From: Nocardioides sp. Arc9.136
GTDB taxonomy: Bacteria > Actinomycetota > Actinomycetes > Propionibacteriales > Nocardioidaceae
DNA length: 64,000 bases
NCBI RefSeq assembly: GCF_030506255.1
Contig: NZ_CP113431.1
Location: 806,001-870,000, forward strand
Direction of reading: 5' to 3'
A program made the translations under genes and the position numbers. Below the pieces are notes generated by a model. That model did no database searches. It had not been told where the DNA came from and saw nothing but the letters and a program-made list of their open reading frames with translations. This document shows, in pieces, positions 22,159 to 51,400 of this stretch. Position 1 is the first letter of the stretch, and each line of letters opens with the position of its first letter.

Positions 22159-22881
22159 TCAGACGCGCCGCAGGACCGCGGTGACCTTGCCCAGGATGGT
22201 CGCGTGCGTGCCGTCGATGGGGTCGTACGCCGCGTTGTGCGGCAGCAGCCACACCTGGCCGTCCTTGCGCTGGAAGGTCTTCACCGTCGCCTCGCCGTCG
22301 ATCATCGCGGCCACGATCTCGCCGTTGTTCGCCGTCGGCTGCTGCCGGATGACGACGTAGTCGCCGTTGCAGATCGCGGCGTCGACCATCGAGTCGCCGG
22401 CGACCTCGAGCAGGAACAGCTGGCCGTCGCCGACCAGCTGCTTGGGCAGCGGGAAGACGTCCTCGACGCGCTCCTCGGCGAGGATCGGGCCGCCGGCCGC
22501 GATCCGGCCGACCATCGGGACGTACTGCGCCTCGGGCAGCACGTCGCCCACGCCCGTCTCGTCGACCGAGGCCTCCTCACCGCTGGACATCGCGCGCCGT
22601 GCCGCCATCACCTCGGGCAGGAACACCTCGAGCGCCCGCGGGCGGTGCGGGTCGCGCTTGAGGAAGCCCTTCTCCTCGAGGACCTTGAGCTGGTGGGCCA
22701 CGCTCGAGGAGCTGGTCAGGCCCACCGCGTCGCCGATCTCGCGCATGCTCGGCGGGTAGCCGCGGCCCTCGATGCTGTCGCGGATGTGGGCGAGGATCCG
22801 GGTCTGACGAGGGGTCAGGCCGGTCACGTCGGGTGCGCCGTCGGGCAGCTCGGAGACCTTGGGACCGGGGTTCTTCGCCAT
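22159..22881 (-). CDS. lexA: LexA, SOS response repressor and self-cleaving protease
   Basis: 240 residues. The N-terminal winged helix-turn-helix has [20 protein letters not shown]. The S24 peptidase domain has the scissile Ala129-Gly130 ([13 protein letters not shown]), nucleophile Ser164 in AGDSM and the general-base Lys201 in EATVKTF. RecA filaments stimulate self-cleavage and de-repress the regulon. A LexA box lies upstream (22957-22972), giving autoregulation. The neighbours, an SDR gene and then a LysM protein with four LexA boxes, match the lexA/division-inhibitor pairing of mycobacteria and corynebacteria, with the SDR inserted between them. Confidence 0.97.
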
Positions 22882-22956: not shown

Positions 22957-22972
22957 TCAAACACCTGTTCGA
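22957..22972 (-). promoter_or_regulatory. LexA (SOS) box upstream of lexA
   Basis: Read on the minus strand it is TCGAACAGGTGTTTGA, one mismatch from the actinobacterial consensus TCGAAC-N4-GTTCGA. It lies about 75 bp before the lexA start and about 50 bp before the divergent SDR start, so it could control both. Confidence 0.85.
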
Positions 22973-23023: not shown

Positions 23024-23803
23024 ATGGAACCCACCAGCTGTGTCGTCACCGGAGCGGCCCGCGGCATCGGCCGCGGTATCGCCGAGCTCATGGTCGCGCG
23101 CGGGCACCGCGTCGTGGTCACCGACATCGACGCCGAGGGCGCGGCGCGCACCGCGGCCGAGATCGGCGCCGCCGAGGGCCTCGGCCAGGACGTCCGCGAC
23201 GCCGCCTCGCACACCGCCGCTGCCGAGGCGGCCGCGCGGCACGGCGCGCTCGTGGCGTGGTTCGCCAACGCCGGCGTGGGTGACGACGGGAAGCTCGCGG
23301 ACCTGACCGACGAGCAGGTCCGCCGCCTCGTCGAGGTCAACCTGCTCGGCGCCGTCTGGAGCACCCGCGCGGCGCTCGCCGCGTTCGGCCCGCGCGGCGG
23401 CGACCTGGTCCTCACCGCGTCCCTCTCGGGCCTGGGTCCCGTCCCCGGCCTCTCCCTGTACGCCGCGACCAAGGCCGCGGTCGTCTCGCTCGCCTCCTCG
23501 GTCGCCCTCGAGGCGCCGCGGGGTGTGCGGGTGCACGCCCTGTGCCCCGACGGCGTGGCCACCGACATGGTCGCCGCGATGCGCGAGGACGGGATGGGCA
23601 AGCAGCTCGTCGCCTCGGGAGGCCGGATGCTGGGCGTGGCGGAGACCGCGCAGGCGGCCGTCGACCTGGTCGGGTCCCGCCGGGTCCTGCGGACCCTCCC
23701 CGGGTGGCGTGGTGCCGCGATGCGCGTCGGCCAGCTCGCCCCCTCGGTGTCCGGGCCGGCGCTCGCGGTCTTCGCGGCCCAGGGCAGGCGCCGGCTGCGG
23801 TAG
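23024..23803 (+). CDS. Short-chain dehydrogenase/reductase inside the SOS locus
   Basis: 259 residues. Classical SDR: NAD(P)-binding TGAARGIGRG, the FANAGVG motif (a variant of NNAG) and active-site YAATK with the preceding Ser (SLSGLG). Oxidoreductase on an unknown alcohol or ketone. The ATG at 23024 lies in the region divergent from lexA, and the stop is only about 25 bp before the first LexA box of the LysM gene. It may respond to DNA damage through the shared box at 22957-22972, but a metabolic role unrelated to SOS is equally possible. Confidence 0.88.
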   Translation: MEPTSCVVTGAARGIGRGIAELMVARGHRVVVTDIDAEGAARTAAEIGAAEGLGQDVRDAASHTAAAEAAARHGALVAWFANAGVGDDGKLADLTDEQVRRLVEVNLLGAVWSTRAALAAFGPRGGDLVLTASLSGLGPVPGLSLYAATKAAVVSLASSVALEAPRGVRVHALCPDGVATDMVAAMREDGMGKQLVASGGRMLGVAETAQAAVDLVGSRRVLRTLPGWRGAAMRVGQLAPSVSGPALAVFAAQGRRRLR

Positions 23804-23828: not shown

Positions 23829-23844
23829 TCGAACATTTGTTCGC
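23829..23844 (+). promoter_or_regulatory. LexA box 1 of the LysM gene
   Basis: TCGAACATTTGTTCGC differs from TCGAAC-N4-GTTCGA only at the last base. It is the most upstream of four boxes. Confidence 0.85.
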
Positions 23845-23861
23845 CCAGGTCCTTGAACTGT

Positions 23862-23877
23862 TCGAACACGTGCTCTA
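23862..23877 (+). promoter_or_regulatory. LexA box 2 (weak) of the LysM gene
   Basis: TCGAACACGTGCTCTA keeps a perfect left half-site with a degraded right half. It overlaps a second half-site cluster TTGAACTGTTCGA, spaced by one base. Confidence 0.55.
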
Positions 23878-23880
23878 CGG

Positions 23881-23896
23881 TCGTACACATGTTCGA
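23881..23896 (+). promoter_or_regulatory. LexA box 3 of the LysM gene
   Basis: TCGTACACATGTTCGA has one mismatch (T for A in the left half-site). It abuts box 4 directly. Confidence 0.8.
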
Positions 23897-23912
23897 TCGA
23901 ACGTCTGCTCGA
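23897..23912 (+). promoter_or_regulatory. LexA box 4 of the LysM gene
   Basis: TCGAACGTCTGCTCGA has one mismatch, in the right half-site. It begins at the base after box 3 ends. Confidence 0.8.
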
Positions 23913-24014
23913 TCGTCAACCGGGCCAGCCACTGTCGGTGGCCGCGGTTAGACATCTGCTCAGACCGAGATCGACACGACCCGAGGCTGACCGCCACTTC
24001 CCCAGGAGGTCCCC

Positions 24015-24371
24015 ATGAGCACCATCACCGCCACCCCCACCGCCCTGCCGCGCACGACCGGCAGCACCCGCCGCTCCGGCCAGGTGCGGCTCACCCGCCG
24101 GGGCCGGCTCGTGGTGTTCCTCCTGGCGCTCGCGATCGTGCTCGGCCTCGGCCTGGCCATCGCGGCAGGCTCGGTGGCCACCGACGAGGCCGGCACCCCC
24201 GAGCCGACCCGCGTGGTGATGGTCGGCACCGGCCAGACCCTGTGGGGGATCGCCGCCGACCTCGCCGAGGACGGCGAGGTGCGCGAGATGATGACCCACA
24301 TCGAGCGGCTGAACGCCCTCGACTCCGCGGTGCTCGCCGCGGGCCAGCGCCTCATCGTCCCGGTGCAGTAA
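24015..24371 (+). CDS. SOS-induced LysM membrane protein, cell-division-inhibitor type
   Basis: 118 residues. A basic N-terminus, one transmembrane helix (about residues 34-54) and an extracellular LysM domain (about residues 68-118, beginning VGTGQTLWGIAADLAE and ending LIVPVQ). This architecture next to lexA matches YneA of Bacillus, ChiZ (Rv2719c) of Mycobacterium and DivS of Corynebacterium, which halt septation after DNA damage. Four upstream LexA boxes support that role strongly. The ATG at 24015 follows CAGGAGG. A strong terminator lies about 70 bp downstream. Confidence 0.88.
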   Translation: MSTITATPTALPRTTGSTRRSGQVRLTRRGRLVVFLLALAIVLGLGLAIAAGSVATDEAGTPEPTRVVMVGTGQTLWGIAADLAEDGEVREMMTHIERLNALDSAVLAAGQRLIVPVQ

Positions 24372-24469: not shown

Positions 24470-24504
24470 CGGCGTCTCCGGACGCGCTCGCCGGCGCGGC
24501 CGCG

Positions 24505-24592
24505 GAAGTTTCAGCGGCCAGCCGATGAAGCTCCCGGATGGCCGCTGAAACTTCATCGGCCAACCGACAGGTTCAGCGGCCGGCCGATGAAA
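24505..24592. repeat. Palindromic repeat cluster with mutually exclusive hairpins
   Basis: GAAGTTTCAGCGGCCA (24505-24520) is a perfect 16-bp inverted match to 24539-24554. The overlapping segment TTCATCGGCC (24552-24561) pairs instead with GGCCGATGAA (24582-24591). Three permuted copies of TTCAGCGGCC and GGCCGATGAA half-units are present. This is intergenic between convergent genes; no gene is seen from 24372 to 24677. Confidence 0.75.
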
Positions 24593-24677
24593 TGTCGCCC
24601 GCCGGGACCGCTCGACGACGCCCACTCAACAAGATCGAGCAGGCTCGACCCGTCCCGGGAGCGGCTCGGCGAGCGGG

Positions 24678-51305: not shown

Positions 51306-51400
51306 TGGCGGAGGCGGACGGGAATCGAACCCGCCTGACCGAGATGCTCGGCCACTACGGTTTTGAGGACCGCGCCCGTCACCAGACGAGGAACGCCTCC
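51306..51400 (-). tRNA. selC: tRNA-Sec (anticodon UCA)
   Basis: 95 nt including an encoded CCA. Acceptor GGAGGCG pairs with CGCCTCC, discriminator G. The D arm has a 6-bp stem with a 4-nt TGGT loop (51375-51390), a hallmark of tRNA-Sec. The anticodon loop is CCTCAAA with anticodon TCA (51364-51366 on the complement). The long variable arm GGCCGAG-CAT-CTCGGTC spans 51337-51353, and the T arm contains TTCGATT. It decodes the UGA in fdhA. Confidence 0.97.

Follow-up and report, generated by a model that had tools for sequence, protein, structure and literature searches.

An 84-bp array of LexA boxes upstream of a LysM division-inhibitor-like gene in Nocardioides sp. Arc9.136 appears to be a composite promoter-operator, with a putative promoter P1 that would be controlled by LexA, a second putative promoter P2 that would be driven by PafBC, and a product that would slow septation. 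Based on the positions and conservation of the elements in the DNA, we give this reading a probability of about three in four. Mycobacterial damage genes are read by two sensors, LexA/RecA and PafBC, and the locus shows, at base-pair resolution, how both might be wired to a single checkpoint gene. Below, the window is the whole stretch of DNA that was analyzed (64 kb), which belongs to a genome of 4.41 Mb in a single contig. The features of the locus are collected in Table 1.

Table 1. Features of the window between lexA and the LysM gene
Feature	Position	Strand	Description
lexA	22159..22881	-	240 aa; divergent from the array; TIGR00498 234.9 bits (cut-off 110.95); Peptidase_S24 and LexA_DNA_bind
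LexA box of lexA, TCAAACACCTGTTCGA	22957..22972		about 50 bp from the SDR start
Short-chain dehydrogenase (SDR) gene	23024..23803	+	adh_short 141 bits; between lexA and the array
LexA box 1, TCGAACATTTGTTCGC	23829..23844		1 mismatch; 52 bp 5' of box 3
Putative -35 of P1, TTGAAC	23853..23858	+	TTG at 17 or 18 bp in 51/58 genus loci
LexA box 2 (weak), TCGAACACGTGCTCTA	23862..23877		2 mismatches; occupies the -35/-10 spacer; ends in the TA of the -10
Putative -10 of P1, TACGGT	23876..23881	+	shares its TA with the end of box 2 and its last T with the start of box 3
LexA box 3, TCGTACACATGTTCGA	23881..23896		1 mismatch
LexA box 4, TCGAACGTCTGCTCGA	23897..23912		1 mismatch; abuts box 3 in a 16-bp register
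Putative PafBC-dependent promoter P2, TGTCGG-N10-TAGACA	23933..23954	+	between box 4 and the LysM gene
Ribosome-binding site AGGAGG	24004..24009	+	from sequence
LysM division-inhibitor-like gene	24015..24371	+	118 aa: RLTRRG motif, one hydrophobic stretch, LysM domain

The lexA-LysM locus

We compared the locus at three taxonomic depths. The genus comparison consists of 57 fetched orthologous loci and the window (n=58). The named set, which overlaps this 58-genome sample in part, comprises 80 loci, and the LysM gene is detectable in 69 of them and without a match in 11. The class sample was anchored on LexA and was not picked by the array; LexA was found in 141 of 148 genomes, and 110 loci were used (30 returned and 80 chosen, with over-sampled families thinned). 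The nearest lexA records in the named collection belong to Nocardioides deserti, Nocardioides sp. IC4_145, and N. oceani, with 95% LexA identity.

The LysM gene is present in 58 of 59 sampled Nocardioides genomes. It lies near lexA in 92 of the 110 class loci, and the remaining 18 have no LysM match, some of them since the fetched piece was short. A TCAAAC-type box (no more than one mismatch) is found near lexA in 99 loci of the same sample. In the window, this box is possibly common to lexA and the SDR gene that separates lexA from the array. The SDR gene is a variable cargo between these two: a homologue occurs within 2.4 kb 5' of the LysM gene in 16 of the 58 genus loci, the window counted, and 21 of the 69 named-set loci have one between the LysM gene and lexA. 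As a separate observation, the SDR gene may be an unrecognized SOS gene, since its start is so close to the LexA box of lexA (Table 1).

The LysM gene product

As the original prediction had it, the array fronts a division-inhibitor-like LysM gene. This gene is lexA-linked, and its membrane-anchored product resembles known SOS division inhibitors. The product is small and has the layout of the YneA/ChiZ type, in which a hydrophobic stretch is combined with a LysM domain and the gene lies near lexA; its RLTRRG segment, N-terminal to the hydrophobic stretch, is invariant. By profile, the LysM assignment is clear: the window protein scores 22.6 bits with the Pfam LysM model (cut-off 20.9), and the domain was matched by all 29 orthologues scanned (29 of the 58). 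The YneA model was likewise matched by 29 of 29 at E<=0.001. We call the protein 'YneA-like' and would not regard it as YneA proper, because its score with the NCBIfam YneA equivalog, 40.7 bits, falls below the cut-off of 60.

It is unlikely, but the best of the alternatives we considered, that the LysM protein is an SOS-induced cell-wall enzyme or adaptor and not a division inhibitor. In the published sections at hand, ChiZ (Rv2719c) is both a cell-wall hydrolase and a negative regulator of division, and its LysM domain is apparently unneeded for its function (PMC3989709), which would suit a cell-wall role. The YneA-like position beside lexA, the membrane-LysM layout, and the matches of all scanned orthologues to the YneA model argue for division inhibition instead, with the window's own score below the cut-off.

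The LexA boxes and the downstream PafBC-type motif

The four predicted LexA boxes are all present at the positions listed in Table 1. Their mismatch counts (1, 2, 1, and 1) agree with the prediction of three boxes at one mismatch and one weak box, and boxes 3 and 4 indeed abut with zero spacer. Operators of the form TCGAAC-N4-GTTCGA, those of an actinobacterial SOS promoter, exceed chance at the promoter of the LysM gene. There are only four matches with no more than one mismatch in the 64-kb window, all of them in the lexA-LysM region (22957, 23829, 23881, and 23897). We simulated 400 sequences with a first-order Markov model, keeping the length and composition of the window; the maximum was two sites (<=2 mismatches) per 84 bp, reached in 4 of the 400 simulations, compared with four sites in the window, and this rules out a chance origin of the array.

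Conservation is stronger evidence for the array than the chance test. Across the 58 genus loci, the core formed by boxes 2 and 3 has zero mismatches in 53 and no more than two in all 58, while box 3 by itself has one or two mismatches in every locus. Box 4 is found with no more than two mismatches in 54 loci, and the other four are without a good box 4 at +16. Box 1 stands 52-53 bp 5' of box 3 in 47 loci and is missing in six, where up to three mismatches were sought. In the named set the core is present in 68 of the 69 loci with a LysM gene and absent in one, and the three nearest named species keep all four boxes as well as the downstream PafBC-type motif.

The array also stands out within its own genome. 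A scan for comparable arrays, suggested along with the original prediction, gave one full-length profile match at 82.8 bits and no second one among the 150 of 900 first-look candidates that were scored, the next being a 17-bit partial match. Among the single-box matches listed, a part of the 185 forward places in the genome with <=1 mismatch, no other two boxes lie within 200 bp of each other. The boxes are nevertheless unequal. With a crude scoring matrix derived from lexA operators, boxes 1 and 3 score 20.8 and 22.2, while boxes 2 and 4 score 12.4 and 13.9; the boxes are in the array as predicted, but four full-strength sites should not be assumed.

A further element stands between box 4 and the gene. 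The P2 sequence, CTGTCGGTGGCCGCGGTTAGACAT, stands 20 bases 3' of box 4 and reads in the direction of the gene. The PafBC motif of M. tuberculosis has the form TGTCGG-N10-TA-N3-T in the published excerpt (PMC8151990); TGTCGG-N10-TA is present in the window, and the final T of the published TAN3T is unmatched in the -10 TAGACA. TGTCRGTG (no more than one mismatch) followed by N8-TA is found in 44 of the 58 genus loci, and in none with a spacing of N7, N9, or N10. The remaining 14, including lineage L056-L059 and L062, lack the P2 motif at this threshold. In the named set, 60 of 68 loci carry the strict PafBC motif 3' of the boxes and eight lack it there, and in none of the 68 does it lie directly 5' of box 3.

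The genome encodes PafBC itself: a Pup ligase gene, a gene with WYL and WCX domains, a gene with HTH_PafC, WYL, and WCX domains, and tatC share one 6-kb stretch. Once activated by single-stranded DNA, PafBC adapts the housekeeping polymerase to the promoters that depend on it (PMC11804915). Judging by its position, the PafBC-type motif should permit expression that is independent of LexA.

These data bear on the regulatory reading first proposed, in which the four boxes are a dense repressor array and nothing else, giving extra-tight repression and a late, strongly damage-dependent induction through a single input. The array is real and dense, as this explanation demands. However, a conserved PafBC-type element lies 3' of the boxes in most loci of both the genus and the named set, and boxes 2 and 4 are weak relative to boxes 1 and 3, which makes the explanation improbable. 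Repression alone is an incomplete reading because the putative P2, which the original prediction omitted, stands past box 4, 3' of all four boxes.

Box 2 and the putative promoter P1

Box 2 had been described simply as weak. With two mismatches it is weak, but it is not simply degenerate: it closes with the TA of a promoter-like -10, and these two bases are invariant in all 58 genus loci. The box ends in TCTA rather than TCGA in the window, and it has two mismatches in 56 of the 58 loci. The putative -10 (TANNNT, with TACGGT in the window) takes its TA from box 2 and its final T from the start of box 3, with three free bases in between, and the letters T, A, and T never vary across the 58 loci. 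A TTG at a -35 position lies 17 bp from the -10 in 34 loci and 18 bp in 17, and TTG was not found at 17-18 bp in the other seven. Within the spacer, the TCGAAC half of box 2 is 100% conserved in the 58 loci. The possibility that box 2 is a decayed site was ruled out, as its deviant TA is invariant.

Outside the genus, an abutting pair of LexA boxes occurs in 66 of 85 LysM loci, representing 28 of 33 families, and 60 of the 66 pairs are at exactly 16 bp. A TA lies 4-7 bp 5' of box 3 in 56 of these pairs, compared with 1, 1, and 2 of 66 at control positions, and box 2 is in register in none of the 66. Because this TA persists in most of these pairs without a box 2 in register, it behaves like an element of the promoter and not like a part of a LexA site.

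The weakest alternative, that boxes 2 and 4 are by-products of a promoter, that LexA binds boxes 1 and 3 only, and that box 2 is conserved as a spacer, takes in the overlap of box 2 with the -10 and its lowest matrix score, but it is very improbable given that a spacer alone needs no TCGAAC, that other families keep the TA without box 2, and that boxes 3 and 4 hold their 16-bp register. The deviation of box 2 looks more like a compromise between operator and promoter. A seemingly poor operator can thus be an exact compromise of a repressor site and a promoter.

Proposed mechanism

We propose that the boxes hold a sigma-70-type promoter, P1 (TTGAAC-N17-TACGGT). Box 2 would fill the spacer of P1 and share the -10 with box 3, box 3 would overlie the start region, and boxes 4 and 1 would lie just 3' and upstream, respectively. 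P1 would in this way be covered from the -35 to past +1, and LexA would close it through several contacts. Upon damage, LexA cleavage would open P1. The transcription start of P2 is predicted to lie 3' of all four boxes, where LexA boxes should not block PafBC, and single-stranded DNA would activate PafBC and turn the gene on through P2 with LexA bound or not. Each of the two damage sensors is therefore probably able to switch the gene on by itself (OR logic), and the LysM product would slow septation during repair.

Promoter variation in other families

The 66 abutting pairs outside the genus differ in the placement of the PafBC element. The strict PafBC motif accompanies 38 pairs and is missing in 28. 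In 33 pairs from 19 families, its TGTC starts 20-24 bp 5' of box 3, and the -10 TA of these pairs stands 4-8 bp before box 3. TGTC alone was found 20-24 bp before box 3 in 39 of the 66 pairs; among control windows, 36 of 396 contain it. In 52 of the 66 pairs, the nearest strong box on the 5' side, which is usually that of lexA, is 50-56 bp away from box 3. Box 1 may have replaced lexA's own box after lexA and the LysM gene moved apart, because its distance to box 3 matches this spacing.

Some loci depart from the paired form altogether. The 19 LysM loci without a pair include four of the five from family f5, where the boxes are 20-23 bp apart. In the three genomes of family f20, no LysM match was found within about 3.2 kb of lexA.

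Within the window's own family, we added 20 further loci, four of which have no LysM match; box 2 has zero core mismatches in six of the remaining 16. Box 2 is present in the window's genus and in genera g3, g123, g125, and g130, the last without a downstream PafBC motif. Genera g2, g118, and g132 have loci with the PafBC motif directly 5' of box 3, and the g118 locus also fits the core of boxes 2 and 3 with two mismatches. In single loci of g117, g134, and g135, box 2 and the adjacent PafBC motif are both missing, and the downstream PafBC motif is present. Both the core and the pair are missing at the g124 and g131 loci.

As a tentative interpretation, which we consider somewhat short of an even chance, the promoter logic of this checkpoint was rewired within the window's family, from a single AND-like promoter to two separate OR-like promoters. 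The form seen in 19 families, with the PafBC element and the -10 running into the abutting LexA pair, implies AND-like logic, because the start driven by PafBC would be covered by LexA boxes and both conditions would be needed. In Nocardioides and some relatives, we infer that a new LexA box displaced the PafBC element. There, the putative PafBC-type promoter stands apart, 3' of the boxes, and this arrangement implies logic of the OR type. The single loci of g117, g134, and g135 look like intermediates. Altogether, the loci form a natural promoter series from both signals on one promoter, through possible intermediates, to two separate promoters.

Only the other families served to infer the ancestral state of the promoter. 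On a quick tree built from 46 short N-terminal pieces of LexA, the promoter states, three in number, required six changes, and 24 of 43 inner branches stayed open. The array profile matched 116 of 296 class genomes at E<=0.01, many of these being partial or reverse-strand palindrome matches, and it was used for finding examples and not for counts. Neither of the two genomes from other families of the same order was matched by this profile.

Comparison with known systems

A paper of 2002 reportedly dealt with multiple SOS boxes 5' of lexA in M. tuberculosis. The kind of locus analyzed here is already known from M. tuberculosis, because both the boxes and the PafBC motif of that species are in print. 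In the published text and legends at hand, the region between lexA and Rv2719c (ChiZ) has four SOS boxes, one of which serves lexA, while the other three together with a PafBC motif control the Rv2719c operon (PMC8151990; the text prints Rv2019c, whereas the legend of Figure S6 has rv2719c). Rv2719c is the closest precedent: in both species lexA is divergent, SOS boxes are clustered, and the LysM gene has a motif of PafBC type. In contrast to M. tuberculosis, as far as the published description goes, Nocardioides has four boxes at the LysM gene besides that of lexA, its box 2 is fused to the -10, its PafBC-type motif lies 3' of the whole array, and an SDR gene parts lexA from the array.

The yneA-lexA pair of Bacillus subtilis and the divS-lexA pair of Corynebacterium glutamicum are likewise lexA-linked SOS division inhibitors in the excerpt consulted (PMC13396833). 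DivS is described as without significant homology to YneA. Unlike the Nocardioides locus, the yneA and divS systems have no PafBC layer in the partial descriptions compared.

The recA gene of Mycobacterium smegmatis has one PafBC-dependent and one LexA-controlled promoter, according to the available part of the report (PMC11804915), and these tandem promoters correspond to what we propose for the LysM gene. Corresponding elements precede recA in the window's own genome, where TTGTCGGTGGCTCGCTCTAGCGT lies between a single LexA box (<=1 mismatch) and the likely start codon; the PafBC-type motif there reads TGTCGG-N10-TAGCGT. The two promoters of this genome differ in that a single LexA box lies 5' of the PafBC-type motif at recA, whereas the LysM gene has four boxes with a promoter embedded in them.

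Among the top-ranked matches in the open-licence literature, we found no paper on this promoter in Nocardioides, and no report of an operator-embedded -10, of a 16-bp pair across families, or of the displacement of a PafBC element by a LexA box.

Other observations in the window and the genome

Several perfect LexA boxes occur elsewhere in the genome. One lies 5' of a DUF6504 gene (L099:1243-1288, near 1.659 Mb), and a PafBC-type TGTCGG-N10-TACCTT ends 8 bp before it, making this gene a candidate for another combined PafBC/LexA promoter. Perfect boxes of the sequence TCGAACACGCGTTCGA were found just 5' of an open frame without a Pfam match (L105) and of a gene for an AlkB-like 2OG-Fe(II) oxygenase (L107); the latter box fits a DNA-repair regulon. 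A further perfect box lies 23 bp past the stop of a potassium-channel-like gene on the minus strand (L103:1331-2479, 2.58 Mb) and may serve the next gene.

In the window, a selenocysteine tRNA gene was identified on the minus strand at 51306-51400 by both Rfam (51310-51400) and ARAGORN, which suggests selenoprotein synthesis in this genome. It was the only structured RNA found by Rfam in the window at gathering scores. A repeat/palindrome unit, AGTTTCAGCGGCCAGCCGATGAA, and its inverted copies occupy 24498-24603, 3' of the LysM gene. The sequence GTTTCAGCGGCC occurs at eight places in the genome, four of which form two inverted pairs with 12-mer starts 32 bp apart.
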